Origin: Syncephalis plumigaleata
Lineage: Eukaryota > Zoopagomycota > Zoopagomycetes > Zoopagales > Piptocephalidaceae
Direction of reading: 5' to 3'
DNA length: 44,712 nucleotides
Assembly (NCBI GenBank): GCA_025201365.1
Contig: JAIXMF010000082.1
Location: 1-44,712 of the forward strand
Shown one piece after another: positions 1 through 43,662 of the stretch. The position numbers and the translations under genes are program-made. The notes beneath the pieces are model-generated. The model had not been told where the DNA came from. It ran no database searches and saw only the letters and a list, made by a program, of their open reading frames with translations. The stretch's first letter is position 1; each line of letters starts with the position of its first letter.

Positions 1-166
1 TTCTTATATGAGATCTTATTTTACATAATTAAGATCTACATCACATACCAGCAAATATAAGATGTGCTTCGCACATCTCACTACGTGTATAAATAATTGC
101 GTAGTATTACGACACATTAAATAAAAATTAAGTCTTCACACTATTATCTCCGCCTCAATTTTAACA
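1..166 (+). repeat. 5' LTR of copia element (truncated at window edge)
   Basis: These 166 bases match 4328-4493 base for base by eye, so they are the 3' part of a left long terminal repeat whose first 43 bases lie outside the window. It contains a TATA-like TATAAAT at 88-94, an AATAAA at 119-124, and ends in CA at 166. A perfect 8-bp hairpin (60-67 with 71-78) sits just upstream of the TATA box. It should act as promoter and polyadenylation region of the element. Confidence 0.95.
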
Positions 167-183
167 GATTAAGAGTCTCAGAG
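167..183 (+). other. Primer binding site, tRNA-Lys anticodon-arm type
   Basis: The bases directly after the LTR end read, in reverse complement, CTGAGACTCTTAATC. That looks like the anticodon stem-loop of tRNA-Lys with anticodon CUU (loop CTCTTAA), not a tRNA 3' end. Copia-group elements are known to prime from internally cleaved tRNA fragments (half-tRNA initiator Met in Drosophila copia). The match is judged from memory of tRNA sequences. About 15-17 nt pair; beyond that the match to the D arm weakens. Confidence 0.55.
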
Positions 184-240
184 GCTCTCGCTAATCAAGT
201 GTCATTTTATTCTACTTTCAAAAACAAAAACTTACTCAAT

Positions 241-3200
241 ATGAGTTCATCTCTAAACACCGTCCAAACACTCGACGGCACAAACTATCGTAACTGGAGG
301 ATTCAGATAAAGGGTCTCTTACTCAACCAAGGAATGTACGAAATTACATCCGAAGATCCGCCAGAATCTGAAGACACACAATGGTTCAAGCAAGACGAGA
401 AGGCCAGATCGATTATACTAGTTACCTTGTCAAATAAACTACAGATCCAGATGGAATCATGCCCTACAGCCAAGATTATGCTCCAGAAACTGCATGAACT
501 TCATCAGCCCAAAGGTCATTCGGCTGCTATCCATCTACGCAGGCAACTACTCAACATGAGGAAAGACGCCTCGAAATCTTGCTCAGATTTCATTCATGAG
601 ATCACGTTGATAAAAGACCAATTGGCAGAAACCAGCGCCCCTGCGTCAGATGCAGAAATTATTGCTTTCCTATTTTCAAGCCTACCCCGCGAATACCATC
701 CCCTAATTGTGAACATGGGAGCGAATCTTAATACACTAACGCTCGAGGACGTCCAAAGGCAAATCATTCATGAGGAGCCGAATGTGCTGATGCACGCAAA
801 TCGGTTGGAAGATACTGCATTACGCGTATCAGAGGAACAAGCGCCAAGGAAAAGAATGCGACCGACGTGTACCTACTGCCACAAATCTGGACATACAGAG
901 GACGAATGTTACAAGAAGATAGGATATCCAAATAGAAAACACATTGATAAACCTTCTACCACGTACCTACTTGCATCCAACACCTCACCATCCTCGGTAG
1001 ACAAACATCTATTAGGAACTTGGGTAGTCGACAGTGGTGCAACCCAGCACCAATGCAGCAACAAGGACTGGTTTACCAACTATCAAGCTATTACGCCAAA
1101 AACCGTCTATGCTGCAAATGACTCAACGATGGCTGCCATTGGGATAGGAACCATAGAAGGATACATCTTTCACCAGCGTGACTACGTACATGTCAAATTC
1201 CAAGATGTGTTACACATTCCTACCTTGACCTATAATTTACTGTCTGTACGAAAGCTCCTATCGTTGAACTTTTCCGTATTCTTCACTAGAGACAATAATT
1301 GTACGATAAAGGCTCCAGATAACACCATCATCGGTCAAGCCCACCTCAGTAGCAACCTATTCCTATTAAGTTTTTCACATTCACGCGAGGTCTCGCTCGC
1401 TTCAACGTCGATCAATGCATCCTCCGATATTTGGCATCAACGCCTTGGTCATCTCAATTATGCTTCTTTAATGTTACTCAAGAGCAACGGACTAGTCAAC
1501 AACTTAGCGGTTAATGGGAAATTGACACAACACTCACACTGCACCTCTTGTATACACGGGAAGCAGCATCGTGTCAAAATACCAAAATCAACGGCTACAC
1601 CTCGGTCAACGGAACGACTAATGCTAATCCACACCGACATTTGTGGCCCAATGTCCGTAGCCAGTCATGGAGGGGCAAGGTATTTTGTTATCTTCGTCGA
1701 TGATTTCTCGAGAAAGATCTGGGTCGATTTCTTAAGTGGCAAGGATCAATTCTTGGAGAAGTTAAAGATCTTCAAAAGCATGGTTGAAAATCAGTCTGGA
1801 ATGAAGATCAAAGCGTTGAGATCAGACAACGGAAGAGAATTTGCCGCATCATATGTGCAATCCTTCTTGAGAGAGAGAGGTATAATCTGGCAATCATCTG
1901 CACCTTATACGCCAGAACAGAATGGAGTGTCAGAAAGAAATATCCGAACGATAACTGAACGGGCACGCACCATGCTACACGCGGCTGGACTTGACACCTC
2001 ATTCTGGGCGGAAGCAGTCAACACTGCAGCCCACACGTATAATCTATCACCAAGCAGTGGAACTGGCAATCGTATCCCAGATTCCCTTTGGTTCAACACC
2101 ACACCATCGGTATCTCACCTCCGTGTCTTTGGCTGTCTGGCTTATGCCCTACATCATGGAAATCGTGCAAAATTCGACTCCAAAAGCAGAAAATGCATTT
2201 TTATTGGCTATTACGACGGCAGCAAAGCATACAGGCTATACGACCAAAATTCTAACAAGGTCGTAAAAACGCGGGACGTCGAATTCGTGGAGAATGCGTT
2301 CCCTTCAAAGCAACGCGCATCGACTAACACCCCATGTAACACCGGTCAAGGTCCTACGATCTTCTTTACCACTACCAGTCAGAGTGAACCACCAAGTTCT
2401 CCTCCCACAGTATCCAGGCCAGATGAACCGTTGCCCTCGCAATGTAACCGTGATACTCAATCAAGCCCATCTCCTTTGGTATCCGCGCCAGACGAATCAT
2501 GGTCATCAGAACATAGTAGTACGCCACTTCCTACCACTCCCGAAACAAGCGCATTACAATCAGAATCACCCACACAAGATATGTATACACCAATCACTGA
2601 CAACGATCACACATCACCTATATTCGACACTTCCAACGATACGGATGAGTCCGCAAGTGCTGTAGATGTTTCATCTGATGAATGCAGATCACTCCTGTCA
2701 GAAATAGTGGGTGATGAGCCAACAACAGTTAAACAGGCATTATCTGGAGACAACGCCGACAAATGGATGGTGGCAATGCAAGATGAATTAAAAAGCTTGC
2801 ACGATAATGGCACCTGGCAGCTCACTAGTCTACCCAAGGGACGAAAAGCTATCGGATCTAAATGGGTGTTCAAGGTGAAGCGAGATGAGCATGGCAACAT
2901 CGAGCGATACAAAGCACGATTGGTAGCACAAGGTTTCTCTCAGATCCATGGTATTGACTACCAGGAAACTTTTGCACCAGTAGTGCGATACTCCTCCATT
3001 CGAATTTTAATTGCTATTGCCACGCAATACGATTATCACATACATCAAATGGACGTGACCACAGCCTATTTAAATGGCAATCTAGATGAAGAGATTTACA
3101 TGAGACAACCGGAAGGTTTTCAACGAGGTGACCATGTATGTCTGTTAAGAAAATCGCTCTATGGACTTAAACAGTCAGGAAGAGCGTGGTATTCGGTTAT

Positions 3201-4299
3201 CGATACCTTCTTGAGTACGCTAGGCTTCAAACGAAACGATGCCGATCATGGTGTCTATTCTAAGCATAGTGATAACTCCATTATATTCATTGCCCTATAC
3301 GTCGATGACCTCATAATCATTGGTGACTCAATGCCCTCGATCAATCAACTCAAAGCTGACCTGTCGTCCAGGTTCAGGATGAAAGATCTTGGTGACATTC
3401 ATTACATACTTGGCATTCAAGTCAGTCGTGACAGAAAACGTGGCATCACTACGCTATCTCAGCGCAAATATATCGATGATGTACTAAATCGTTTCAATAT
3501 GACTGATGCGAAGCCAGTAGGAGCACCATTAGAAACAGGCATCAGACTTCAAAAGGGAGATAGCGTCATAGAAAAAGACGAATTAGAATACATGAAAAAT
3601 GTACCTTATAGAAGTGCCATTGGCAGCTTAATATATCTAGCAAACGCTACGAGACCTGATCTAGCGTTTAGCATAAGTCTGCTAAGCAGGTTTCTGTCTG
3701 ACCCTAGACAAGTTCATTGGAACGCAATAAAAAGAATAATGAGATATGTAAAACACACTGCTAATGTCATTTTAAAGTATACTAGAGATACCGGAAAAAT
3801 CATAGGTTACTCAGATTCAGATTGGGCCAGTAGCTTGGACGATCGCAAATCTACAACTGGTTATGTCTTCGCCTATAACAAAACTGCTATTACTTGGAAC
3901 AGTAAGAAACAACCAACGGTTGCACTATCATCCACAGAAGCCGAATACATGGCTATAACGGAGGCTACCAAGGAATCTATGTGGCTAAATAACTTTATTA
4001 TTGGATTACAGCTTCCAGATATACGACCCATCAACATCCAATGCGATAACCAAGGATGCATCGCACTAGGCAGGAACCCGGTACAACACAAGAGGAGCAA
4101 GCATATAGATATCAAGCATCACTACGTGCGAGAGGCCACAAACAACAATTCTATCGAAATCAACTATTGCCCTACAGAGGAGAACGTCGCCGATATATTT
4201 ACCAAAAGCTTGAGCAAACAAAGACATTCACTTCTAGCAGAGCTTCTTGGCTTAGAGGAATCCAAGCATCGCCCTGAGGAGGAGTGTTGGAATTCATAA
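241..4299 (+). CDS. Ty1/copia Gag-Pol polyprotein (intact)
   Basis: A single uninterrupted ORF of 1352 residues from the ATG at 241. The open frame extends upstream to 199 without another ATG. Order of domains: Gag-like region (about 1-200); CCHC zinc knuckle (CTYCHKSGHTEDEC, about 210-223); aspartic protease motif DSGA at 264; GAG-pre-integrase and HHCC zinc region (from about 398); integrase catalytic D466, D529 and E565 with exactly 35 residues between the last two; reverse transcriptase with YVDD (Asp 1022-1023); RNase H with SDSDW (about 1191) and TEAEY. Integrase before RT defines the Copia superfamily. No stop or frameshift is visible, so the element may be autonomous. The last five codons run into the 3' LTR. 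Confidence 0.97.
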   Translation: MSSSLNTVQTLDGTNYRNWRIQIKGLLLNQGMYEITSEDPPESEDTQWFKQDEKARSIILVTLSNKLQIQMESCPTAKIMLQKLHELHQPKGHSAAIHLRRQLLNMRKDASKSCSDFIHEITLIKDQLAETSAPASDAEIIAFLFSSLPREYHPLIVNMGANLNTLTLEDVQRQIIHEEPNVLMHANRLEDTALRVSEEQAPRKRMRPTCTYCHKSGHTEDECYKKIGYPNRKHIDKPSTTYLLASNTSPSSVDKHLLGTWVVDSGATQHQCSNKDWFTNYQAITPKTVYAANDSTMAAIGIGTIEGYIFHQRDYVHVKFQDVLHIPTLTYNLLSVRKLLSLNFSVFFTRDNNCTIKAPDNTIIGQAHLSSNLFLLSFSHSREVSLASTSINASSDIWHQRLGHLNYASLMLLKSNGLVNNLAVNGKLTQHSHCTSCIHGKQHRVKIPKSTATPRSTERLMLIHTDICGPMSVASHGGARYFVIFVDDFSRKIWVDFLSGKDQFLEKLKIFKSMVENQSGMKIKALRSDNGREFAASYVQSFLRERGIIWQSSAPYTPEQNGVSERNIRTITERARTMLHAAGLDTSFWAEAVNTAAHTYNLSPSSGTGNRIPDSLWFNTTPSVSHLRVFGCLAYALHHGNRAKFDSKSRKCIFIGYYDGSKAYRLYDQNSNKVVKTRDVEFVENAFPSKQRASTNTPCNTGQGPTIFFTTTSQSEPPSSPPTVSRPDEPLPSQCNRDTQSSPSPLVSAPDESWSSEHSSTPLPTTPETSALQSESPTQDMYTPITDNDHTSPIFDTSNDTDESASAVDVSSDECRSLLSEIVGDEPTTVKQALSGDNADKWMVAMQDELKSLHDNGTWQLTSLPKGRKAIGSKWVFKVKRDEHGNIERYKARLVAQGFSQIHGIDYQETFAPVVRYSSIRILIAIATQYDYHIHQMDVTTAYLNGNLDEEIYMRQPEGFQRGDHVCLLRKSLYGLKQSGRAWYSVIDTFLSTLGFKRNDADHGVYSKHSDNSIIFIALYVDDLIIIGDSMPSINQLKADLSSRFRMKDLGDIHYILGIQVSRDRKRGITTLSQRKYIDDVLNRFNMTDAKPVGAPLETGIRLQKGDSVIEKDELEYMKNVPYRSAIGSLIYLANATRPDLAFSISLLSRFLSDPRQVHWNAIKRIMRYVKHTANVILKYTRDTGKIIGYSDSDWASSLDDRKSTTGYVFAYNKTAITWNSKKQPTVALSSTEAEYMAITEATKESMWLNNFIIGLQLPDIRPINIQCDNQGCIALGRNPVQHKRSKHIDIKHHYVREATNNNSIEINYCPTEENVADIFTKSLSKQRHSLLAELLGLEESKHRPEEECWNS
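4276..4284 (+). other. Polypurine tract
   Basis: GAGGAGGAG immediately precedes the TGTTGG start of the 3' LTR. This is the expected position and composition for the plus-strand primer of an LTR retrotransposon. It lies inside the end of the Gag-Pol reading frame. Confidence 0.8.
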
Positions 4300-4594: not shown

Positions 4595-6974
4595 TTAAGC
4601 AGAATTCAAAGGTTTGACTGCCTTTCCTAGCTTGCCAATAGCGTATGATAATTTAGCAGCATTTTGATCAAGGTGTGAATCACCTAGAATAGTTTGTTAA
4701 TATACAGTATACATATGCTACGTTGCAATTGCTTACCTATCTCCTTATCATCGAGCGCTTCCATAATAATCGTACGTGAATCAGGGCATTTCTTTGCACT
4801 TTGAGCAGTAGCAGCACGTAATTTGGCCACCCATTTAGCACCATCTATCGTAAGTGGCATTAGTTAGTACAAATTAATCAATAGACCGATTGATTATACT
4901 CACCCCAGTATGGTGCAAAAGGACTATCAGAATAGCTGGTTACAAGGATATTGGGATATGCGACATTAGACTGAATGTTATCATATGGTGAGATTGCTCG
5001 AATAGTCTTATATTCATCCGCTGATTTATCTGGATTGCCCCATGCAGATACGCGTACGGATTCACCCCTAGTGTTTTGATCCATTATTCTATTCAGGACA
5101 TTTAAATACGGCACTATAATATTAAATTAGCATTAATCATTATTCAATGTGCGATCTTTACACTTACTGTCGATAATGGCCACCTTGGCAATATCAGGTT
5201 GCTTATTGATGGCAGCACCAATAGTTGTAGTAGCATCATCATAGCCTTCAAGTACCATTAGATTATGATTGGTATACTTCTCAGATACCAACATATCAGT
5301 GGCAGCCATGAAATCATCAATATTGACCTTCTTCTCGTCGATTGTTGTGTATATGTTTCGTACAACTAAATTCTGTTCTTCCGTTCTTCTGCTATGGGCA
5401 ACTGCACAAACAAATCCACGATTGAGCAACGATACATACTCTGCTCTAAAGTCAACTTCGAACATAGGAGCACCACCACCGTTGCCTACTACCCAAGCGG
5501 GATTCGCACCATTCTTATTCATTCCACGCTTGTAGGCAATGATAATAGGAACGTTGACTTGATTTCCCTTGCTATCTGGCTTGCCTTTAGCATAGATCAG
5601 CTCGGTAACATAATCCGATTCATTGTAGTCAGGTACTGGATCTACATATGTCTTCGTTGCCTTCTTTGTTGCCATGTTGTAGGAATAGGTTGTTCGAGGT
5701 GTGATCAATGACGAGTACTCAAATATGAGCGTATCGCTGTTGTAATCAGCTACTCCTTTATAAGCCGCCCTATATGATTTAGCTGGGAACTCGATATTGT
5801 GTGATTTCGCATTAGGCTGCAGTCTTCCTTCACTGTCATAGTCGTATACGGTAACTTGCTGAGGGATTGCAACCTCATCAAAGATTGCAATATGATTTTG
5901 GAAGGCAGCTATAGTGCTAGTCTTGAGCGTAGCGTTTTCCAGCACTAGCTTATGAGCACTTTTATCATTTAGCTTGTCGATATCGCATACGTATGCTGTC
6001 TTCTTCTTGGTATCCTTAGACTCGGCTACAAGTAAGAACTGCTTGTTCAAATGGTATACCTCCAAATATAATCCAGGCGACAACAATGCTTCAATAGGTA
6101 CCATTTTACTTGCAGTATCATTGGCGGCATCCATATAAAAGTACTGTGGCTTGCCATCTTTTTGATATACGTTTATGAAAAGGTACTGATTGCTCTCGGA
6201 TTTCTTTATGCTAATCGATGATTCTTTTTGGCCGGTGTGAATGACACTATCTTTATCTACGGAAGTGCCGATTGTATGTCGCATTAAGCGAGCACCGTCA
6301 GGACCATTAGTTGTGTATAGAATGCTCTTGCCGGTGCCACTCCATTCGACCCAGAAGCTATCGCTCTCAATCTTGTCCGAAAGTAACTTTCCAGAAGTAA
6401 GATCCTTGAACTGCAAGCTGAATTTTTGACTGATGGGGTTGTTTATAGTAAAAGCAACTATGGTATGATCGCTGTTAGGGCTTGTACCAAATACGTCTCT
6501 GGATCCCTCAGGTAGTGTGTTGGTATCCAGTATAAGTTCCTCGGGAGCATTCGCTACGTTCATCTTCTTTCGATAGTAGACAGAAGACTTAGTATCAGGT
6601 TGCTGCCTATAATAATAGCTGTAATTTCCTGAATACTGAGAGAATGCCGTTGGAGATCGACCTATTACTTTGGCCATTTCATTACGAATCTGATCCTTAA
6701 GCTGTTGATCCTTGGTGAGCACTTGTTGAGCATAGACCTTCTCGGCATTGAGATACTCTTTCACATCCGTACTGTTCCTGCCTTCATCCTTTATCCATTG
6801 GTAAGGATCATCGATAACCTCGCCATGGTACTTGTGCTGGAATGGTTTTGTCTTGGCCACCGGTACTTGTTCCGATTGAGAGGCTGGAAGTGCGTGCAAT
6901 GGTACGGCCGATCCAATAAGTACTGCAAGATAGGCAAGTGCTACAAGCCTGCTTGTATTACGATAGCAGAACAT
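4595..6974 (-). CDS. Secreted S9 oligopeptidase B-like protein lacking its catalytic residues
   Basis: Four exons: 6974-5168, 5113-4904, 4844-4737, 4683-4595, giving 737 residues. The second intron has a TACTAAC branch site. The ATG at 6974 is chosen because it opens a clear signal peptide (hydrophobic core LVALAYLAVLIGSAV, likely cut near residue 32). The S9 N-terminal motif DDPYQW follows, then a beta-propeller-length region, then the alpha/beta hydrolase part with oligopeptidase B hallmarks (VLNRIMD, SPYDN, AKWVAKLR). The nucleophile motif GxSxG reads G577-Y-D-D-A, the RGGGE loop reads SRRTEE, the Asp region reads SDSPF with Asp shifted one place, and the His motif AGHGG reads ALDDK. Inference: a catalytically dead secreted pseudopeptidase, perhaps a binding or decoy protein. 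A minus-strand AATAAA lies at 4562-4567. Confidence 0.88.
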
Positions 6975-8204
6975 TTTAACAGCAAGATAATGGTTGCGAT
7001 AATGCGAGGTAGTGTATTGATTGTTGCAAGAGTAAGATGATAATGATTTATTGCCAAAGACGAATAAAATGCGGCGGTTTAAATAGTATTTACAGTAGAT
7101 TGCTCCAGACATCATTATAACATGCTTGAAATAAAGCTGGTAAGCCTTCAGCATCGTGCAATGTACAACCACGTTTGTCCCGTCAATGTAGTTTTGTCCC
7201 GAGTTACCAAGGGTTCTGTATGTACACGGTGGCTATTTCGAGTTTTGTTGAATGTAAATTTGACATTCTGTCGCATGTGGTTGCAATCCCAGTTATGGCT
7301 GCAATGGATGTTTCATGTTGTAGGTATATTCACCTGAAATGGCCACTGTTACCTATTTGTATCTTGATACATCGTGCCTTTCATATATCCATTGGTCAAT
7401 GTTGAAACATGAACCAGTTATCATTCCATCTGTCAAACGTATTTGCTCATATTTTTAGAAGAGACTGCTAATGGACTCATGGCGTTTACTCGGTACTGGT
7501 TTGCATGAAATCACTGGAGGACTATTAGTGAAGCAGGAGCATGGTTATTTTTAGGAATGTTTGAACAATGCCATAGATGATGTTATTTGTACTCGTATCT
7601 CCTGCTTAATGGTTACTATTGGGTAGTTGCTTGCTTACATTGATAGCACAATAATAATAAGCATGTTGAAAACAAGAACATTTATCCACTTTCAAGTATA
7701 TCAAAGAATGAATACATGAAAGTATGGACATTATAGGAATTGATCAATAGTGATGATTTATTACAATTTACAATTTGAATTAGTCAAAAAAAGGAAGAAT
7801 GAAAAGTGTCATGAAATCGACTCGAGTAACCGAGTAACCAATACAAGTATCCTCACATATTCTGTTTACGTATATGCGATAGAACTATATGATGTGGTTA
7901 TAATACGGCCATAATTATTTCTTCTATAAATATCGAGTCCAAATAGAAAAGGGCCCTCCAGTCTAGCTGAATGATTATTATTATATTACCATTATCTTAC
8001 TTGACCCTTACTTAAATATGAGAAAAAAGGAAGGAAAGAAACAAACAAACAAACAAGGATAAATAAATGATCGGTTGTAGAGAGGATAGCCGCGTTATCT
8101 ATATAGGAGATTATCTATCTATCTATCTAATAAATAATTATAGCGTTGTAAATAACCATACGGTATAGTGTGTGTGTGTGCGTAGAGTAGCGTAATAGCA
8201 ACAA
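6975..8204. other. Intergenic: peptidase-like gene promoter and 3' flank of next gene
   Basis: No supported gene in about 1.2 kb. A minus-strand TATTTAAA at 7078-7085 could be the TATA element of the peptidase-like gene. The right end holds an ATCT tetranucleotide run (about 8110-8128) and a short GT run (about 8167-8180) close to the end of the next gene. The short open frames here have no recognisable content. Confidence 0.5.
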
Positions 8205-29317: not shown

Positions 29318-31365
29318 TTAGACCATATATCGGATGGTCTCCGTACTCTTAGCATTTGCAGGCATGGTAATACTAGGTCTGGCGTCACTCATGGATAGTC
29401 TCGACGATGATGGTGTCTTTGACTTGATGGAATAGGTTTGGAAAAAGTTCCTGACAGCCCTGAACGTGTTGACCGTTGCACCAGATACCGAATTATGCCG
29501 ATTGGAGACACCCACCACCAGTAACAGAGTGAATGACCGTAGGAGAGCGCTGACATTTCGCGTGATAGCCCAGGCTAGCAATCCCTCAGGATGAAGGGTT
29601 ACACTTTTGATAAGTAAAAGCAAATTTGCAACGAATCCTACGAGGAAGACGAATGCGCAAGTAAATGAAATAATCCATAGCTAAATCAATAGAACAAATG
29701 ATTAGTCACAAGGCATGTATGTTATTATGAACCACGTTGCTATCTAGCTTACCTTTCTTAGCGATTGAAATGTATTCCGACAACCGGACCACGTTTGCAA
29801 ATGTCGTCGAAATATAATGGCTAAATGATTATTTACACGTCATTTAGTTGATTATCCTACAAGGAATGGATTGTATCAATTCCACTTACCATTGTATATG
29901 AAAATACCACAAGTAAACAATTGAAGAATTGCGTTGATGTAGGTGATGACACTAAATGCCGTGCTCACGATTTCATTGAATGGCACAAAGTCCAGAATGA
30001 ACCGGATGCCAAGTACCGTCATCTGCGCTGCATAGCACACGATAATGCCCATTTTGAATGGAAATTTACGATTGGCCTCCACAGCACTAATTACCGGACA
30101 CCTATCGAGGAGCAGTGCATGAGATGATACGTCGATTGAAGAAGATCGATTAGCATTACAACATTAATGATATACTTCTTTCCTTCCTCTTTACTTACCA
30201 GGCTAGCAATAACCAGTAGAAGGTGGCACTGTATAGAATGGTACTTATGCGTACAATAGTATAATTGGCTAGACACATTAATCTTATAGGAATAGCGATG
30301 GTCGATACTAATCGAGCAATTGACAATGTTAATAGAATGAATAATCGAGATTGATGATGCTGCCCATTACTTACGTAGTGTCGACGCTAAACCCACGATG
30401 AAAATAATACTACGTGGATCAAGTGAGAACTTGCCCTGAAATATCAATAATAAAAGGGTTCGTAGTCCACTTAGAAATATAATTGCACCAGCAGCGACAA
30501 GTACTGTATTGCACGCACGGTAACCATTCGATAGAAACAGCTCATTCCACGGACCAAGTTCTACAAATGAATGTTAACAAATGTGATCGATTTCATTATC
30601 GATACTGCCCTGCTGATTTGCTCACCTTGCTTTAAATTAATTGGAATGTATTCCCCAGCTTCATCGTAAGCATCTACAAATTCATCGAAATACTTTTCCG
30701 ATAGGAGTGCCACAGGAATGGGCGGCTGGTCATCAGGAATGAAAACACTCGAGGATATGTAAGGCACGATGGTTGGCGCTCCCTCCACTCCGTGATAAAC
30801 GCCTTTTAATATGTAAAGAAGCGCTTTAGTTGGCGGATAATTATGATATCGTGTAAGATCACCGCCATACGCTTGCACCTCGATTGCCACCTAAGCGTAG
30901 TGCATGTGTAAATGTATGCAAGTATAGTGATTGTTAGCAGATGTATCATCACTTATTATTACTGTTTGTAATTGCTAGTAGAGTACGTACCTGAGTTACA
31001 GTATAACAGCCATGGTCCCGAACGTAATCGTCATCAAGTACAATGACCAATTCGTTAAACGTTGGCACGCCATCAGCGGTTAGCGGATTGTGGAAGCGTG
31101 TCGCTTTGTCAGGACGAAGCAGTGTACATGTGGTGTTATCGGCAAATGACGGATTATAGGCAATGCCCGAGATATTATACGGTGAGTAGTAGCTTTCAAA
31201 TACGTCAAAAGTTGGATAGGTGATGGTACGATTGTTATACGGGAAACTGATCGATGCATTAGCGAAATAAGCGGTATTAATAATAGTAATAGTGATAGTG
31301 ATAGTGATAATAAGGTAGAAGGAGATAATACAGTTTGCAACACGCATATTAACGAGTGAGTTCAT
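29318..31365 (-). CDS. Paralogue A: PA-like ectodomain, seven-helix membrane protein
   Basis: Seven exons (31365-30991, 30890-30626, 30560-30375, 30307-30199, 30101-29890, 29820-29753, 29680-29318) give 525 residues. A hydrophobic signal segment follows the start. The ectodomain (about 40-212) carries YPTFD, a strand then C-Y-T-V-T-Q, and PPIPVALLS, the order seen in protease-associated (PA) domains. Then comes LGPWNELF and about seven hydrophobic helices (first about 227-250), with a Ser-rich basic cytoplasmic tail. The third exon (186 nt) equals the 71 plus 115 nt exons of the three paralogues, so an intron was lost here. No named family is recognised; receptor or transporter are both possible. 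The start could also be the next Met six residues in. Confidence 0.85.
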
Positions 31366-32210
31366 GCTGAGAGGACTGTAGTAAAACACAATTAAATGCT
31401 GGAATAGAATAATATTAATAAAGGCTTTGGTAGAATAATTTCATAAATGGTGCTACTATGGATTTGTAATTAAATAAATGATAGTGAATTATCAAATGGG
31501 ATGCTAATGGAGTAAGGAAAAGATTTGCTGCTTATTATTCGATAGTTGTAAGAAATTGAATGGTGAAGACAAAAAGAAGAAGAGGACGAGGAAGAGGATG
31601 CTGATGCTGATGCTGATGAGGATGAGGATGAAGATGAAGATGATGACAGGGTAGGTACAACTGGAATCATCATCAAATGGATGGACTTAACGGATGATAA
31701 TATATATATATGGTTCTATTGGAGCTTACCGCTCGGTGATATAGGATGAAGCCGTGTTTGAGCCATACTAGCAAAATCCTGTTTATAGGAGAGTATAACT
31801 TGAAGGCATTTGATACAATTCGATACATGCAATGCTGCATGGTGGTAACACAAAAGTGTGACTTCAAACAATAGAACAAAACAAACCGGACACGTAAAGG
31901 TTTACTTGCCATTTTAGAACATTTCATACAGCATGTTTATTAGATGAAGTCAGCAGTATTGTTATTATTAGTACTTATTTATTGCTAACGATAGATGAAT
32001 AAACAGAATATCATACATAACTTTAATAAAAAAGTATATAATAAGGACAGCATAGTAAACTAGACAGAAAAAAGTTGTATTTATAAGGATAGATAGATGG
32101 GGAAGGAAGGAAGGGAGGGAGATAGGTATAATAGTAGGTATAATAGTAGTGGCTATAGCTGTCAAAATGCAACCATCCTACTTGAATGACATTGGAAACT
32201 GTATATACGT
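31366..32210. other. Intergenic between paralogues A and B
   Basis: About 845 bp with the promoter of A and 3' flank of B. It contains a GATGCT/GATGAG imperfect repeat (about 31594-31648), which gives poly-Ser-like frames on the minus strand by chance. No gene is supported. Confidence 0.5.
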
Positions 32211-34315
32211 TTAGTAGTCAGCTTTTCGTTCCGCTCTTCCTTGTTCCAATACGTCATTGTCCGAGTGACCACTGCATAGGGTAGCATCGCTATTCGAGGC
32301 ATCCTCCTGCTCCTCCTTGATTTGTGGCATGGCCACAGTAACGTAGATCTCTTTGCTTGTGGTAGCGTTAGATTTTGGCACGCTACTACCTGACGACGCG
32401 TAGGATTGCTGGGTCGACAAATCGCACGAATCCTCATATCTACTGAGTCCGAATCGTTTCGCGAGACGTCGAATGGGTGTTAGATGCGACGAGTAGGCGC
32501 CTGACGACGGTGCAAAGTCATTACGACGTGGTACACGCTTCGATGGCATACGTACACCAAAGATGAATAGTAGTGCAATGGCTCGTAGCGTGTAGCCAAT
32601 ATTGGTGAATACGTGCATGATTGTTACACGAACAGGCGTTGTACTTCCTTTCGAGCTAACCGTGATAAAGTTACCGATCGACAGGATAAGAATGCCTAGG
32701 AATCCCACTGCACCAATGTAGCTCAGCTTGGTGAGTGCAGTGTAGGTCTTGCCATGAATACGATGTTTACGACCGGTCACGAAGAACACCACGGTGAAGT
32801 AGATGAAAATGAGCGCATTCACCGCTTGCAACGAAGGTATACAATAGACGGTAATCTGGAGCAAGTGTATGCGAACGGAATCGTCGATAATAATCAACGT
32901 GTCGATCACCTGTATAAGGTAGAATGCAATAAGAAGACCACCGGACAAACAGATAATGATACGTTGCGTGGCCACATGACGTCCCGGATGTATGGCGGCA
33001 AAAAGCCAATTCCTAATTATTGCGCGTAGACAATTAGCGATCTAATAGCAATTTAATAGCAATGGCAATAATAATAAGGATAAGGATAAACTTACCATGT
33101 GTATAATAGCAGATAGAATGCCAATGTGAATAAAACTGTGCTAAATTGTCCTATAACTATGCTTGTTTGACGACGTATTGGCATTGGTAGTGTTGTGATA
33201 AACACTATCATCGAATGTTGGTTAGTATTATGGATTGGATTCCGATTACATTTCCATGCTATCACGCTAATACTTACATAGAGTGGAGGTGACACTGATG
33301 GCGAAGATCACATTTCGACGTTCGAGTTTCAGTTGTTTAGCGGCGATTAATTTGCCTACGGCAACTAGTCCGTAAAAGACGAAACCAGCATTCTGTACAG
33401 TAATAATAATTCTATATCAGTTACAAGGTTCTAAATGCATATGTATATGTGTATATACACGCGTATAATGCGACCTACCAGACCGACCAAGATGTAAATG
33501 AAAGCGTAGTATGTAGGACTGGTGAAAATACTATTCCATGGACCGGGTTCTAAGCAAAAGATGGAAAAAACATAACTATGAGTAAGATCTATTTTATAAT
33601 CTAGTCTCATCAATCCTATTGCCTACCGTATTTGACATCAACGGTAATCTGGTAGCTACTACCAACCCGTTGCTTTACCATAAAATCCTCAGTAGAGTCT
33701 GGTAGTACGAGTGCCATCGGAATGGCCGGTGTTCCATCTGGTATACCGACGCTCCTTGCTTGGTACGGTTCGGAGTAGGGACCACCGCGGACGACGACAC
33801 TATCTTCATTGATCCATTTCGCCATAAGGTAAAGCATTAATTTAACCGGTGGATAACCAAGTTCGACAAGTCCACTATTGAATTCGTTGATATTCTCCAC
33901 AACCTGCATCGTGTTGCCACATTAGTCATTTGACAGTAACTTCATATAATTAATCGATTTAGCTTACCTGGGCAATAGTCAGGCATCCCGCCTCTCTGAC
34001 ATCCTCCTCACGAATACCCATGATCGTGGATGTTGCCGGTTTAATGCCAACTCTACTCGCGGGTATAACACCTGCCAATCGTAGGGAGCATGGCTTTGGG
34101 TACTTTGACATTTGCATCGGGAGAAACACGCCCGATTCGCGATATTGCTCCTGACCTCTTGAGGCTTGAAAGTAGTCATAAGTGGGATAAGTAACTACAA
34201 CTGGGGTGGATTCAGTGGTGTTTTGATCCGTTGCTTTCGGCGGTATCGTGAATGTAACATGCGCATTAATGTATTGACACGATGCCAATATGATAACGAG
34301 TAGCATATACCACAT
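32211..34315 (-). CDS. Paralogue B: PA-like ectodomain, seven-helix membrane protein
   Basis: Six exons (34315-33968, 33903-33627, 33549-33479, 33392-33278, 33204-33096, 33012-32211) give 573 residues. It has a signal peptide (MLLVIILASC core), YPTYDYF, a PA-like ectodomain with AGCLTIAQ and AIPMALVLP, the shared GGPYSEPY patch, then PGPWNSIF and seven clear hydrophobic helices (about 221-246, 254-274, 292-315, 330-353, 365-393, 412-436, 450-472). The roughly 100-residue tail is rich in Ser, Lys and acidic residues and carries clustered Ser, suggesting phosphorylation. The large last exon (802 nt) replaces three or four exons of the paralogues, so B has lost the 3' introns. The intron before exon 5 has an ATACTAAC branch site. 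Confidence 0.87.
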
Positions 34316-34515
34316 GCTGAACAAGCAGTATAGTTGAGTAATTGAATGAATAAATGGAAATCAAGAAATAGAGGTGTGAGTGTGTGTAAGCGGACCTGCC
34401 GCAATAATTGGAGAGGTTATACCGTATTTTTTTTAAAAAAGAGTAAAGGCAAACGATAGGTCAACTACACGAAGGAAAGAAATAATGTTAGCTTAACTAG
34501 TGGCAAGTAAGAATG

Positions 34516-34566
<51 letters not shown>

Positions 34567-35734
34567 ACTAGTGAGGCCTGCTCGATATGCCAAAGTAATA
34601 AAGAATACTAGAATATTAGAATGGAAGAGAGAAAAGAGAAAGAGAGAAAAGGTAAATGCTAGAATAGGTGGTTTGCACGAATAGTAGATTAGTAGAAAGA
34701 GTCGGTTTACATGACTTTTTGCTAGCTTACTTGCTACGCCTCGCCATACTCAATATGGTGAAGGGATGAAGAAAGTGAAACGCTACTTGCCAGTTACAAG
34801 TCGGCGTTTATTGAAAGCCGGTGTACTTCCTCTATTACAAAAATAGTATTAACCCTTCCTGTTTCATCATCATCATCATTAGTGTCATCATCAAAAGTTC
34901 CCCCTCCCCTCACTTTCATTCATACAACGGAGTTATTCTCAACTACTAGTTGAACATCCGCAAATAGTTGCATAAATCCGGTCGAGTCGCTATTATTATC
35001 CTCTTATCGCTTCTATATAGAAACACTAAAAAGTTCCATTCCATTAATAACCAATAAGGTATTAATTTGCTCACTAAAAAGGTTCATTGTATCGTGGCAT
35101 GACATGGTGTGATGTGAGGTACAATGTCATTTTGTCGTGTAACTCGCCCATTCTTCACTAGTGATTACACCAACATGTGTTTATTGATCACAATAGCGGT
35201 GTCATTTACACGCGGGCCTATTTGATTGCGACGTACACGTCATGTACATTTAGGGAATACAGACGTATTGCTAGTAGGGAGAACGTTGCTTTGCATTATT
35301 ACATTGTTATAGGAGAGTAACGGGCTTGATAATACAGCTAAGCACTGGCTTGCTCCTCTTCTATCCCAATTATATATTTTCTTATGAATAAAGTATTATA
35401 TCATACTATGACCATAGAGAATAGGACTAGCAAGTATTTATTACACGTTTACATGGAACTTTAGTATAGTGGAGACAAGGGCTTATCAATGGTAAACGGC
35501 GGAATGGCACAAGTGATGCATGTCAATCCATGAATGTTTATTTGCTGTAACACTGCGCCTATGAACCGTATCAACAACGTGACCGGCATAATTCGAAACG
35601 TAAAGTCTACGAGTGATGCCTTATTCGGAAAAATGCCTACCCATAAATTGCATCATGAAAAATACGATACCCATCAGTGCAACATTTACAGCCTAGTGGC
35701 CTATGTTCACATTGTAGAAGAGCGTTTTCTTATT
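34316..35734. other. Intergenic between paralogues B and C
   Basis: About 1.4 kb with the promoter of B and 3' flank of C. It contains a long GA run (about 34522-34562), a CAT run near 34865-34880 and a T8-A6 tract near 34428. No gene seen. Minus-strand AATAAA candidates for C occur near 35537 and 35431. Confidence 0.5.
34522..34562. repeat. GA dinucleotide microsatellite
   Basis: An uninterrupted GA repeat of about 20 units roughly 200 bp upstream of the paralogue B start codon. On the coding strand of B it is a CT tract, which can act as a promoter element or be length-variable. Confidence 0.9.
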
Positions 35735-37820
35735 TTAGGCCAACGTGCTAACTCCTCGACTGAAGAGTTGGCCCCAACTTTTGTTAGGCCTTGTTATGCC
35801 GGGTAGCTCGAGGTCCTCCATTTTCTCCCCGGTCGAAGTCATCTCCGACGCGGTCTCGGTTAGCTTCGACATCATCGATTTACGCGACATCATGGATTGG
35901 CGCAATGGCACAGGATTGTTTAGGGAAACAAGTGCTACTAGACCAATACCGCGTATAATGCCGAATACCGTCAATGTAACAAATACATCCATGTGCTTAT
36001 GGGCATTCCAATTGTTACGCTGACTTAGAGACATGCTTGAATAGATGCCTTGAGCGATCATGTAAAGGAAACCGGGAAGGGCTAATCGTGCCATCTATCC
36101 TATGTGTTAGTCGTTTCGTAAATGTGGATCGGTTCATTAGGATTCCGAATCAAAAGAAATACTTGCCAGATTGAATCGTTTAATTTGTGCTCGGGTAATG
36201 ATGTCGATTGACTGTTGCATTTCCTTGTTCGCCACACCTAATGATTGGTTTAATATGAATAAATGAACGATAATTATGATTATCATTACCTATTCCAATG
36301 AGTAACAAGGCAATTAGCGCATAGATACACATTAATGCAACACGAGCACCGGCTGCTATGCGTAAGGCTTCATCGTGTCCGCTCATGGTGGATCTACCCA
36401 TATTTACTGTATTTGTAATGAAGCAGAACACTTCAACTAGGAGTGCGACATGACAGCTGTAGAATAGACTAGCGATAGCAATATTCATATTACTGATCAT
36501 GTCCCTTATCGTACGATGCCTGCGTTTTATTATCAAGCAGTTAGGGTTAATCGAATTGTTATGATGTATCACTACTACTCACCATATAAGCAACTGAATG
36601 TAGAAGCATCCACCGTAAAATAGGGAATCAAATGTTTTTAGCAAATAGGTCGAAGACGTGACAAGTCGTATTGGAAGTGTAATAGTGAAGCCTTGATAAT
36701 AGTTGATATTAATTGATTAGTTAGTTAGTTAGTTAGTCAGAATGAAGCAAACATGTATATACAAATGGGTCACTTACATATTCCGGCAATGATACCCAGA
36801 AGATGCGCTACTTGTACCGGACCAAACGAGTAATCATTCCTTGCTGCACGCTGTATGAAACGTACTGCACTCACAAGTGTCACCACGGCACTCTGTATGA
36901 TCGATCGGTGTTAGCGAATAGAATGTCGTTGATCCGAATGTGCATTATGCGAAACTTACAAAAGCACAGGCGACATATCTGAACGTAATAAAATCTCGAT
37001 TGAGGAATATCTCATTCCAACGTCCCAGCTCTAATAGTTGAATCATTGTTAGTATAGTCTATGGTGTGGCAAGCAAGCAAAAACAGGAAAGTTACCTTTA
37101 GCAACATTGACCGTCATTGGATATTGCGCCTGTCGTAGTCGTGTGTACACGTTATCGGAAGCAATACTGGGTACGAGTGCAGTTGTTATTGCAGGACTGC
37201 CATCCAAATCAATCAGATGATAGGAGGAGTAGGGATCGCTGTAAGGTCCGCTGTAATCACCGGCTATGTCCTTGTCGACAGTTGTAAATATGAGAAGCAT
37301 ATTGGCCACCGGATATCCGGATCTTTCTAGATTACTGGCATAGGTGGCGACCGCCTTTGTAAGCTAGATTACATTCCATTGTATTAGTATTCACTAATCG
37401 ATCATCGATGCTTGTCAGTGACACGCGATTTACCTGGGCATACGTGTTACAATTGGCTGTCGCCGCGTCCTCCCAATTGATACCGATAACACTACCTTTG
37501 TAGTGGGTCAAATTAGTGTCGGCCAAAATGATGCTGTCGCCGGTACGATTGAAAGCAAGTCCGCAGTTCTGCTGGTTGACAGTCGAACGGAATCGAGGAA
37601 GCAGCAATAATCCGGTGTAGTTGTAGTCTGGCGTCGTAGTCTCAAAGTAATCTTGCGTAGCGAGACTAGGGAAATCACGCAAGAGCGAATCGGTTGCAGT
37701 GTTGTTGTTTTGCACTAGGGTTAGCTTAGCAAAAGTGCCACTAGCACTAATGGCACCGATTATCAGTGAAATACGTGCAATAGCACCGCCAGCAGTGCCT
37801 AGAAGAAGGGAAGGTCTCAT
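35735..37820 (-). CDS. Paralogue C: PA-like ectodomain, seven-helix membrane protein
   Basis: Eight exons (37820-37434, 37363-37096, 37030-36960, 36892-36778, 36691-36583, 36519-36290, 36237-36167, 36094-35735) give 536 residues. A hydrophobic signal segment (ISLIIGAISASGTFA) is followed by a PA-like ectodomain with ATQDYF, CNTYAQ, SGPYSDPYSS and several N-glycosylation sites (NNT, NYT, NRT, NLT), then LGRWNEIFLN and about seven hydrophobic helices. The tail has repeated SRKSMMSK-type Ser/Lys patches. The intron 36166-36095 starts with GC rather than GT, the only non-GT donor in my models; no GT donor nearby keeps the frame. Exons of 71, 115 and 109 nt match paralogues B and D (D has 145 in the last). 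Confidence 0.84.
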
Positions 37821-38360
37821 GGTTGTGTTTATTTGGTGTTGCAAATGATGCTATCGCTATTATTGATTAGGATTGCTAACGAATAAAATGGCTTAATAAA
37901 GCAAAGTAGAATAATGATAATAATAATAATAATGACGAATTCAATAGATATTAGTTTCGTGGCACAGCACGGTTATAATGACGATTTATCGGTTATCGCT
38001 TTGTTTGTTTGTTTAATCAGAAAAGCAAATGATTAGTTAGGATGAAATGCAAGTTCTATAGACTGGCACTGGTTTGTTGACTAGTAGCGAGAGCGAGAGA
38101 GAGAGGGAGAGAAAATAAGAAAGAAGTTAGGATATTGATGTAAAGAAATGAGGAGTAGTCAAACTATACCACTACTAATAATGATTAGGATCATGGAGTA
38201 CGTATGTATTTTTCTCATGTAGTCAGAGGAATAGATTACGAGTATGGTAATGACATCACCATGAAAAGTAATTTTTCCTGAGCGGAATCTAAGCACCGCT
38301 AATTAACAAGTAAACAAGGAAATGACTTATTAGGAATGTGAGTAGCGATAACAAGCACGG
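37821..38360. other. Intergenic upstream of paralogue C
   Basis: About 540 bp. It holds the promoter of C, an AAT run (about 37917-37931), a GA-rich stretch (about 38088-38115), and similarity to the sequence just beyond the Fanzor-like copy 1 stop (GTAGCGATAAC ... CACGG near 38342-38363). No TIR was found here. Confidence 0.45.
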
Positions 38361-38744
38361 TTAAGTTGTTTGTTGTTGTCCATCATTTCTTGAACATTTA
38401 GAAGTAATGGCACTTTGATGAAATTGTGTTGGAACATCGTTTCCATTGCAAATACTGAGAATAATCTGAATAACATTCAGACATGCTGCCATATCCCGAT
38501 TCCATAAATGATACTCGAATCCTTTACCATTCATGTCATCTTTACAATTCTGATGTGTGCATCTAATAGAATAATGAATTAGTATAGTGTTATAGATTGT
38601 ACTCATCTTAAGAAGGCATGACAAGTGACAGTAGGATATCTCGTCAATTAGAAAGACTTGAACACCATGCTTCATTATTATCCACACTTGCATATGATTT
38701 ATTTGTGTATTCTTGATTAAAATAACGTCATTGTATTCCTCCAC
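38361..38744 (-). pseudogene. Fanzor/TnpB-like C-terminal remnant (copy 2)
   Basis: An open frame of 127 codons. It includes GVQVFLIDE, a degenerate cysteine-rich part (CHLSC ... RCTHQNC), then HLWNRDMAACLNVIQI and NDVPTQF, which align directly with copy 1 at 25310-25507. The order strand-DE, zinc-finger cysteines, WNRDxxAxxN matches the C-terminal RuvC/zinc-finger part of Fanzor nucleases. The expected conserved segment after DE and the whole N-terminal half are absent. The frame opens only 30 nt from the F-box start codon on the other strand, so it may now serve as promoter DNA. An independent small gene is possible but less likely. Confidence 0.62.
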
Positions 38745-38773
38745 CCATATCGCCTTTCTTATTCCATTCCACT

Positions 38774-40405
38774 ATGTCTACTACTACTACTACTGAAATA
38801 TCGAGTAATTCCAACTCGTCTTGTAGATTACTAGTTTGTCTGAATAGTCTTCCATTTCATGACCAGCGTGTCTTCCGTAGTCTACTTGGTCATACCGAAT
38901 TATTGCGTTTATCAGCATGTTGTCGCTCGTTAAGAAGCAGTATTCGAAATGACACAGTATTATGGCAAGCACTATACCATAGGGATTTCCTATCGGGAGC
39001 ATATTATACTAAAGAAATGGATTTCGTATTGTGGTGTATACGCACGGATGTCAACAATCCATGTACATCGGATAAACGAGCCGATCTACTAGAGAATGTA
39101 GACTGGTACAACACATATCGTCGACGAGTGAGCACCGAGAATAATTGGCGATATGGACGATGCAACACCATGCATATCGATATGGAACAGGACGAGCGTG
39201 GAGTATCTTATTACAGATATAGTAGTAGTAGCCGTATATTTATTGCGCAGCAAGATCGTTCAAACGAAACATCACGTCATAGCTATGCTTTAGAATATCT
39301 ACCACATTCGAATCTTAGATCAGGCAACAATACTGTGCATAACAGTACAGTATCCACATCGCCAAACATTTTTTCGCTAGATATTGGTAATGAAGATGAG
39401 TATGATTATGTCTCGGGTGATCACTATATAGCTGTATTTCCTAGTAATATCGAGAGCGACACCAACGATAATGTAAAAATACTTTCTCGTAAACATGGTG
39501 GTATTTTCACTACATTCGATGTTCCAGGTCGATATCGAGTGGATACAATCGAGGGCAAATGGGTATTGCTAGTGGACAAATTACAAGTACTAGTTAATGA
39601 TTCGCTAAGTTGGAAAAGTAAGAGTGATAACTATACTATGATGCAATATAGCTAGTACTAATAACCAATACATTCAGCCGATATAATGGTATTCGATATA
39701 GATAATAGTATCATGTGTCCAGGAAACATTGATGATACATGGGAGACGACATGTTTCTATCAAACAACCAATGATACAGCAATAGTATACACGGCAAGAA
39801 TAATCAAAGATAATGATACAGATCGTATTGAATGGGCACTACATCAGTTCTCGAGCAACAATCCTGTTATACAATTGCGAAGTGGCTGGTTTCAACTACC
39901 TGAAATGATGCCGGATATGAGAATATTTGCTCAAAATTCATATGATTCGTATATGATTCTTAGATTACGTGGTCATCCTAATTTTTATCCATATATAATG
40001 CATAGTGTAGCATCCAATGGTCAAAGCCAGGCTCCACGTAATAGTTATATTATGACAGACCAGCATATACTTGCTCCATTGTTAAGAGCTGGATGCAGAT
40101 ATTCGATGTTTGATTCCAGACTGACAAAAGTATGGACAAACTTATCCTACAATGACGATCAAGTATTACGGATTCCAGGTACAAATTTCATCAGACATAT
40201 TATTGGAGATCTTTATATTTTTACTGTAAAAGATCATAATGGTAGAGGAAATCGACTGTTTGTAGATATTAGTACAAAAGAAATAATACGTAAATTGGAA
40301 GCGCCATCCATGGGCTTTGAGTCGGATAATCGTGCAACGGTTGGTACGATATATAGTCCATTTGGCAGCCATACACAAATAATACAAGAATATGGTGGAC
40401 TATAA
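38774..40405 (+). CDS. F-box protein
   Basis: Two exons, 38774-39617 and 39678-40405, give 523 residues. After a Thr/Ser/Asn-rich start, residues about 25-75 form an F-box: LPFHDQRVFRSLLGHTELLR, then SACCRSLRSSI and LWQALYHRDF, which ends as F-boxes typically do. The remaining about 420 residues have no motif I can name; alternating short hydrophobic stretches suggest a beta-rich (possibly propeller) substrate-binding region. F-box proteins act as SCF ubiquitin-ligase receptors via Skp1. The unspliced frame ends early at 39655, so the intron is needed. AATAAA follows at 40414-40419. Confidence 0.82.
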
Positions 40406-41456
40406 CAAACATCAATAAATCATACTATATTAGTTAATAAGAGTAGTATTTATACATCATTGAACCATGGAACATGCTAATACTTTCTATGAACTGGATG
40501 ATTAGTTAGAATAAACTCACCGTATTTCTCTCTCCTCATTTGAGAATGTCAAATACAACAAATTACAAGAGTTATATATTTTCATGTAAGTTTCGCCATA
40601 CTGTTCACTGGAATGGTCTCTTATGGAACGTTCATCCACATGAACAGTATGTGACGCCACATCGTATAAATTATGGAGAAGATCATTGTCTTATTTTGTT
40701 TATTCATTCATTTTGAGGCAACCGCATGATTACACACATTCTCACATACACATTGCTAAATTAATGGTGGATGCCTTTTGTGCCAGTCAACGTTTGTCTA
40801 CGTCCAATCATTATGACCAAATCCTGTTATGCGTTATAGTGAGTTGCCTTTGTTAGTACAAGTACTTGCAGGTTCTGCTTTTGCACCGCGTGTACGCATG
40901 CTGCCGATGCCAGGCTGCATAGAGTGAAATTTGGAACATTCGCAGACTGAACTGCATCCTTTTCCTTCATATTCCTACAACAACACACTATCGTTTACCA
41001 GCAACTATTTGTAACTAATATCGAGTTGCTGTTCCTTCTTCTCCTCCTTCTTTACCCTCTTCTTCGCTATCGTCGTCACTATCGTTGTCGTCTTTATTAT
41101 CTCTCGCTTAGTTCGCTAATATTTACGGTACCACTAATACGTACGGTAACTGCTAATGCTGTTGCAACCACAGTTGTAGGAATATCCCAAATCGAATCCT
41201 TTCTCCTTCGACACCTTAGATTATTTCATCTATCAATTCATCTATTCTTCTGTTTATTTATTTATTTCGTCGAACAAAAAAGGCCGTATTTCCCTGCTGA
41301 TAGTGTATTCACTCGTATCACGTATTGTGTATTATCAAACGGTAACGATAGCGGTGTTACGTGTACTCAATCAATAATTTCTCCCTTGCTTGTTCGGTCG
41401 GTCTAGCAGTCCAACTTGGCAGATATACTGGGGCATAGCACGCCACATTAATCCGA
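40406..41456. other. Intergenic between F-box gene and paralogue D
   Basis: About 1.05 kb with the F-box 3' UTR and the promoter or leader of D. A perfect 11-bp inverted repeat (40597-40607 with 40641-40651) is present. A pyrimidine-rich stretch (about 41025-41100) may be a promoter or leader. No gene is supported; an upstream non-coding exon of D is possible. Confidence 0.45.
40597..40651. repeat. 11-bp inverted repeat with 33-nt spacer
   Basis: CATACTGTTCA at 40597-40607 is matched by its exact reverse complement at 40641-40651. The transcript would form a stem-loop about 180 nt beyond the F-box polyadenylation signal. It could also be an old insertion footprint. Confidence 0.7.
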
Positions 41457-43662
41457 ATGTTATCGTCACACTGGTCTTGCATAATAGCGTATTTCACGCA
41501 AACACGACCACCTATCCATTCCATCGTAATCGCATTCTTACTATCAACGTTATGGCTACCGAGACTTGTCCCGGCCTATGTGGTATTTGGTAATACACAG
41601 CGTAATGTTACGGCACCCACCGTGGACTACTTCCAACAACAAGTCAAGCCGTATGATCGATACGGTCCCATGGTGTTGCCGGCATTTAGCGCAAACGAGC
41701 AATGTGTTTTCAAGTCACCATCGCCAAATCCACTGGTTGCCAATACATTGGCCAAATCAGGATTCAGTACGGTATTGGCAATCAATTGGACTAATGCCAT
41801 GGATTTTGGCTGTCGTAATTACGCTCATGTAAGCTACTAGTTTGCCTATATATGGTCTATTACACATATGCCAGATGAATAAGCATTAATTCGTATTTGT
41901 GTTATTGATCAGGCGGTGCACGCGTTGGAAATGACTGAGGATGCATATCAGCAATCTGGATTCCCATCACCATTTACAATTCTACTAATGATACCTGTAT
42001 TCCTTCCGGGTCCATTCGGTGGCCCGCTCACTGATCGCTACATAGCGCATGACCCACATGTTGGCAACGAGTTTCCAACGACGAACGTCGCCCTAATGAA
42101 CATCAATGACTACGCGCAATTTCTACGAAACAAAACTGACACAACATCCACGCAGTATGTGCGCATCGTCCATGGTATGTGATCGAACAATGATTGACGC
42201 ATGTGCACGCTTGCTAACTAGTTGCTGACTTCTATAGAGCAAGGATCGTGGAATTCCGTATTTCTCTCGAACGAATACGTTGGCTTCAACTGGGCTTTAT
42301 TCTCCATCGTATGTATTGATAAGAAGAGGAAGAGGAGGAGGAGGAGGAGGAAACATTTGATTGACTACACGAATACATATACTTACATTCCTGTCTCTAG
42401 AATGCAATTGTCAGCGTTTATGGCCTGTTCATCTTTGCTACCACGCTATTTCTACGGAAGTTTGCCGCAGATATTCGGAATGTCGTGTTTATCCTTGGTT
42501 TTCTCGCAGTTATCGGTAAGTCGACGTAATATCGAATGGTAGTAATGAGTATTTGGCTAAAACGACCCATGTCACCAGCGAATACGGTAGCAATGGCACA
42601 TCGATACGCTAATTACACGAGAATGACATTGGAGCAAGTATCCAGCTGTCTCTCCTGCATCGCTTTCTACATGTTGTTATATTTATGGTAAGATGGACCA
42701 TTTCATTTACTAGTAATCTCTTATTAAATTTATCATAATGCAGGAGTTCATTATTATCGCAGATTAAACGCGATCGTAGCATGTATCCACTACGCTGTTT
42801 CCTCATATTCGGCGCATTGGTGGCTCTATGGACGGCGGTCAACACGCTTATCTGGCTAAACTACTGGGACACGAGCAGCATCGAGTCGATCATTAGGGTC
42901 AATCGTTACCTTACACCGATCACGCAACTCTTGGTGGCACTACTATTCTGCCTGGTTGGTAAGTTGTATCGTGGAGGACTATCAAGCATCTAGTAATAGT
43001 AATTGAATGTTAGGTTATCGTTTTCGTACTCGTAGAAATCAATGTCGAATGTCCCAAGAGACGCAACAAGCTCTTACCAAGGTAAGCGAGATTGCACAAC
43101 TAGATGATGACGATGATGATCATACAGCTAATGATGCTTGTAACCTTCCTACCAGCTGGCATGGTTAAGCGTGATGGGATTCATCACCTTTTTACTGCAA
43201 GCAATCGCCAACTTCATCAGTGGACCAATCGACAATCTGACGAGTGTATCGGTGGCCGTTATCAATTACACTTTCCTCACGATGGCATTCACCATACGAA
43301 GCGTGGCAATTATCATGATTCTAGGTGTACGTGTGCCTAAACACTTACGTGAAGCAGGTGGCACCTCGGGAATTGTCAGCTCCACCGGTGAACCTGCCAA
43401 CAATCATAGTTTTGCAGACACCGAAGGCAAACGGTATGGCGCGGAAACCCTACAAGCTAAAATGTTTTTCATTCAAACTTACTCGCCTACCTATTCACCC
43501 GCCTATTATCATCATAATGAGGTGAGTCTAGTCATTATTACTATTATTACTAATAATACGGGCATTAATGATGGTCATTCTGTTATGTTTTTAATGTAGG
43601 CTCAACGCTTCTCTGTCAATCTAGCTCCTGATCCACTTGATAATCAATACCAACATCACTAA
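41457..43662 (+). CDS. Paralogue D: PA-like ectodomain, seven-helix membrane protein
   Basis: Nine exons (41457-41828, 41913-42174, 42238-42308, 42401-42515, 42543-42687, 42744-42958, 43014-43081, 43156-43521, 43600-43662) give 558 residues. The start at 41457 places a signal segment (IVIAFLLSTLWLP) ahead of APTVDYF, the PA-like ectodomain (VLAINW, CRNYAH, GGPLTDRY, TTNVALM), QGSWNSVFLS and about seven hydrophobic helices, ending in a polar tail with a TYSPTYSPAYY repeat. Exons of 71, 115 and 68 nt match the paralogues; the next exon is 145 instead of 109, a 12-residue insertion between helices. An upstream exon cannot be excluded. The intron before exon 5 is very short (27 nt), so that junction is the weakest part of the model. 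AATAAA lies at 43685-43690. Confidence 0.83.

Follow-up and report, generated by a model that had tools for sequence, protein, structure and literature searches.

Described membrane proteins with a protease-associated (PA) ectodomain include the PA-TM-RING proteins GRAIL/RNF128, ZNRF3 and RNF43, which have one helix and a RING finger, the plant protein VSR1, a sorting receptor for vacuolar cargo with EGF repeats and a single helix, and the SPPL2 signal peptide peptidases, with nine helices and aspartyl protease motifs. The PA fold holds R-spondins in ZNRF3/RNF43 and peptides in VSR1. The ectodomains of class C and class F G-protein-coupled receptors (GPCRs) are Venus-flytrap or cysteine-rich domains, not PA domains, and the GOST proteins are seven-transmembrane (7TM) proteins with a luminal domain. 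Here we describe four genes, A to D, of the fungus Syncephalis plumigaleata, located in a window of 44,712 nucleotides (the whole stretch analysed; assembly GCA_025201365.1, contig JAIXMF010000082.1, here C365), whose products combine a PA-like ectodomain with a seven-helix part, an architecture that we hold with high confidence to be real. The layout of folded ectodomain, short linker, seven helices and tail is the same as in class C and class F GPCRs, and we give a probability of about 0.6 to A-D being GPCR-like receptors at the cell surface, members of a fungal 7TM family without description in the sources searched.

The interval 29318..43662 was spliced by hand into four multi-exon genes, and its limits, as drawn in an earlier note made from the letters of this DNA, coincide with the stop-codon ends of A (29318) and D (43662). 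The models were checked with a purpose-written splice-aware profile-to-DNA aligner allowing introns, which in leave-one-out runs recovered 525/525 residues of A, 573/573 of B, 527/546 of D and, only in part, C (314/533); with the full profile, an acceptor of C moves by 9 nt and the protein becomes 536 aa long instead of 533. The last intron of C (window 36166-36095) is a GC-AG intron, as is intron 1 of the paralogue L026. Splicing, profile tests and paralogue matches beyond chance confirmed the earlier proposal of four paralogues with a shared architecture, but the motifs listed for them held unevenly: E-x-G-x-W-N and T-x-D-x-F occur in all four, the PT-x-D-x-F form in three (C has AT instead), and the GP...Y patch is clear in three, gene A reading GAPTIVPY. 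Hydropathy revealed an N-terminal hydrophobic segment in each protein, followed by 7 more peaks in A, 8 in B, 6 in C and 8 in D, one of those of D (residues 145-163) falling within the ectodomain. When 19 members of the wider family were pooled, Ser and Thr made up 23.5% of the tails versus 15.9% of the ectodomains and 13.6% of the helix part, in agreement with the Ser-rich tail noticed before; the tails vary greatly in length.

The PA fold of the ectodomain is visible by structure only. The ectodomain model of the paralogue L015 has a PA fold by structure comparison, and A-D are assigned it by homology to L015; the nearest folds were the PA domains of GRAIL/RNF128, ZNRF3 and RNF43, at identities of 7-13%, with the PA domain of VSR1 also among the best matches. 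The PA-like ectodomain proposed in the earlier note was thus borne out, rather than the lack of a PA fold that it had named as counter-evidence. The Pfam model PF02225 matched 0/18 family ectodomains while giving 23 matches elsewhere in the genome, and we therefore call the ectodomain PA-like and not a PF02225 member. Neither PDB sequence searches nor profile-profile comparison with true PA domains yielded anything useful, hhalign of the ectodomain profile (A4) against true PA domains (A6) giving a probability of 2.1% (columns 136-157 of 181 versus 58-79 of 80). The nearest folds could point to PA-TM-RING ubiquitin ligases, and a PA domain with many helices is also a feature of SPPL2, so that the proteins might be ligases or SPPL2-related membrane proteases. 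This idea is largely refuted and highly improbable: the helices number seven, Pfam scans of A-D gave no RING match, and of the SPPL/A22 motifs PAL occurs in 0/19 members and G-x-G-D in a single one, L020, where it lies in the ectodomain. The likeness to VSR1 favours another alternative, namely sorting or trafficking receptors that would, like VSR1, capture Golgi or endosomal cargo with the PA domain and whose 7TM part would be a GOST-like carrier without G-protein signalling.

The structure model of L015, of modest confidence, contains seven long helices in a GPCR-like bundle, consistent with the helix number and GPCR-like reading given before. In Foldseek searches with the helix model, the 50 PDB matches listed were all GPCRs, and the 50 VIA matches listed comprised GPCRs, a designed GPCR-like bundle and microbial rhodopsins, ion pumps among them; transporters other than rhodopsin pumps were absent from the listed matches, and the known transporter fold named in the note as counter-evidence did not turn up. 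A search of a viral fold library listed herpesvirus GPCRs and other membrane proteins among its matches, none of which reached E 0.001. The positive-inside charge pattern over 19 members, together with the N-terminal hydrophobic segments, predicts an N-out topology, as had been expected. The class A GPCR motif NP-x-x-Y was found in 0/19 members and D/E-R-Y/W/F/H in 2/19. A Pfam scan of 15 helix regions returned matches to 13 families, all of them at chance level (best E 0.019), with no 7TM model of class C or F among them and PalH (E 0.82) as the sole fungal signalling 7TM model; a STE3 search was without match, STE3 controls being equally silent. Transporters or channels in which seven helices and an outer domain coincide by chance would be a further explanation, and some of the fungal proteins assigned to GPCR class IV may be vacuolar transporters according to the available part of the review PMC13308352. 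However, the fold matches above and the receptor-like combination of a large PA-like ectodomain with a Ser/Thr tail make this explanation improbable.

The four genes belong to a large family. A search of the genome (32.6 Mb, 383 contigs) with B, D and two paralogues, at a cut-off of E 0.001 and with some further matches within the same genes left out, gave 57 match clusters. In our reading, three of these contain two genes and 18 pairs are allelic, which leads to an estimate of about 40 distinct loci; gene models cover only a minority of the weaker loci. B (residues 5-475) and D (residues 49-489) each match an unlinked intronless paralogue, with E values of 3.0e-28 and 6.5e-30, respectively. 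Accepted loci, excluding seed genes and alleles, had profile scores of 106-427, whereas 40 shuffled loci reached at most 47 and eight PA-gene loci at most 44; the candidate L071 gave no more than a background score and was rejected as a family gene. The family set comprises 22 proteins, namely A-D, L015 and 17 further loci. Of the 17, two are incomplete (L038 and L069), one contains a stop codon in frame (L037), and three have doubtful ectodomain models (L065, L070 and L079). Exon lengths recur in most models (a second exon mostly of 252-268 nt, then 71+115 or 186, 109, 212-218 and 68 nt), as do intron phases (0,1,(0),1,2,1,0), the last two introns being missing in B and L023. L015 (C373:241895-243271) is a single 596-aa open frame without introns, in contrast to the several introns at shared places in the other modelled members, and is perhaps a retrocopy. 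With L015 as the single query, no relatives were found in phages, GTDB contigs or IMG/VR, all of them non-fungal collections. The genome itself has four matches to fungal chitin synthase, in line with a fungal origin.

A second, allelic copy of the A-D cluster lies on contig C24, and about 6 kb past it is L008 (C24:162090), a PA-containing subtilisin-like protease by sequence. Between the alleles of A-D, compared over 389/525 residues of A and nearly the whole of B, C and D, there are 41 synonymous versus 13 nonsynonymous changes, suggesting, on small counts, that these genes are constrained. Mean pairwise identity among 19 members is higher in the ectodomain (24.6%) than in the helix part (18.7%), contrary to what a ligand site under rapid change would show. 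The idea that the divergence is that expected for sensors of changing ligands thus finds no support in either comparison. A tree of 20 of the 22 members has long branches, with 3 of 17 inner branches well supported, and rejects A-D as one clade (approximately unbiased test, p 0.0044), ruling out a single recent tandem expansion; the cluster is thus either old or was brought together.

Two clear G-alpha genes (PF00503) are present as a pair on C340 and once more on C257, with a few further weak places below the cut-off. The paralogue L025 sits in the 11 kb between them in both haplotypes (C340:1095655-1109204; C257:7715-21000), against a chance expectation of about 0.02 family loci, an estimate made after L025 had been seen there. 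Matches to regulators of G-protein signalling (RGS) number 26, alleles included. The position of L025 argues against sorting receptors, as do the Ser/Thr-rich tails of very different lengths, the lack of convincing matches to 7TM families in Pfam, and the large number of divergent copies, which a cargo receptor would seldom need. Two clear G-alpha genes for some 40 receptor loci, however, suit sorting receptors better and weigh against GPCR-like ones, and we regard sorting as the main rival, if an unlikely one. For GPCR-like receptors, the part of the earlier reading that stands is the PA-like ectodomain, seven-helix bundle and Ser/Thr tail, while coupling to G proteins is our inference. Such receptors would lie in the plasma membrane, where the secreted-side PA domain would bind a ligand, for which a peptide, protein or glycan is the likeliest candidate. 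Through the conserved E-x-G-x-W-N linker this domain may be tied rigidly to helix 1, so that binding alters the seven-helix bundle; basic inner loops would relay the signal to one of the fungus's two heterotrimeric G-alpha subunits, and signalling would be ended by RGS proteins and by tail phosphorylation at Ser/Thr. Ten 7tm_3 matches, one above the cut-off, adjoin matches to RGS, those on C12, C1 and C46 within equally long open frames, so that the fungus probably has other, class-C-like 7TM-RGS fusion receptors.

No Pfam family matched the family proteins beyond chance level (the best match, at E 0.0085, linked a glyoxalase model to one ectodomain) and NCBIfam gave no convincing match for the three proteins tried, in keeping with the earlier remark that no named fungal family has this combination. 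In the available parts of two papers, 17 fungal GPCR classes (I-XVII) are defined, 14 older ones mainly in Ascomycota and Basidiomycota, and 141,666 further fungal seven-helix proteins are left unidentified as GPCRs by the profiles used (PMC12842992), and the same classes are reviewed, with ligands unknown for most fungal GPCRs (PMC13308352). The present family is like these classes in its 7TM part, N-out orientation and fungal host, but those parts of both papers contain neither "PA domain" nor "protease-associated", and the available part of PMC8778642 contains neither term nor "GPCR". Pth11 has an outer CFEM domain with eight conserved cysteines, whereas the ectodomain of this family has two. 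Within the open literature searched, no paper relevant by title paired PA with 7TM, GPCR or receptor. We lean slightly towards a distinct fungal GPCR class, "PA-GPCRs", with about 40 loci in one genome and one member between both G-alpha genes, as a fungal counterpart of classes C and F in which the PA domain would be the ligand-binding head and E-x-G-x-W-N a hinge. If so, PA would be a new entry among the few types of GPCR ectodomain, and the way in which the fungus senses its surroundings would come to light through a large receptor family that has a folded ligand-binding head of its own; the PA-like ectodomain, of about 180 aa, could be made alone as bait for ligands.

Table 1. Coordinates of the four genes and their parts in the window, and of 7tm_3-RGS neighbours elsewhere in the genome
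Feature	Position	Strand	Details
Gene A	29318..31365	-	525 aa, 7 exons: 31365-30991, 30890-30626, 30560-30375, 30307-30199, 30101-29890, 29820-29753, 29680-29318
Ectodomain of A, through E-x-G-x-W-N	30544..31257	-	introns inside, start approximate; alignment A4, homology to L015 ectodomain model
Seven-helix part and Ser/Thr-rich tail of A	29318..30543	-	helices by homology to L015 model
Gene B	32211..34315	-	573 aa, 6 exons: 34315-33968, 33903-33627, 33549-33479, 33392-33278, 33204-33096, 33012-32211
Ectodomain of B, through E-x-G-x-W-N	33533..34261	-	introns inside, start approximate; alignment A4, homology to L015 model
Seven-helix part and tail of B	32211..33532	-	helices by homology to L015 model
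Gene C	35735..37820	-	536 aa, 8 exons: 37820-37434, 37363-37096, 37030-36960, 36892-36778, 36691-36583, 36519-36290, 36237-36167, 36094-35735
Ectodomain of C, through E-x-G-x-W-N	37014..37730	-	introns inside, start approximate; alignment A4, homology to L015 model
Seven-helix part and tail of C	35735..37013	-	helices by homology to L015 model
Gene D	41457..43662	+	546 aa, 9 exons: 41457-41828, 41913-42174, 42238-42308, 42401-42515, 42579-42687, 42744-42958, 43014-43081, 43156-43521, 43600-43662
Ectodomain of D, through E-x-G-x-W-N	41574..42254	+	introns inside, start approximate; alignment A4, homology to L015 model
Seven-helix part and tail of D	42255..43662	+	helices by homology to L015 model
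7tm_3 and RGS side by side	C12:17602-19230, C46:518287-519792, C1:2987576-2989204, C35:503148-504669, C35:705720-707653, C318:722526-724512, C362:271524-273139		

Between C and D, on the plus strand (window 38726-40405), are two adjacent open frames, the first showing weak F-box-like similarity that stays under the curated cut-off. Elsewhere in the window, a 1392-aa open frame on the plus strand (121-4299) with gag, integrase and reverse transcriptase domains represents a Copia-type element, and a prolyl oligopeptidase-like gene is located on the minus strand (5133-7232).
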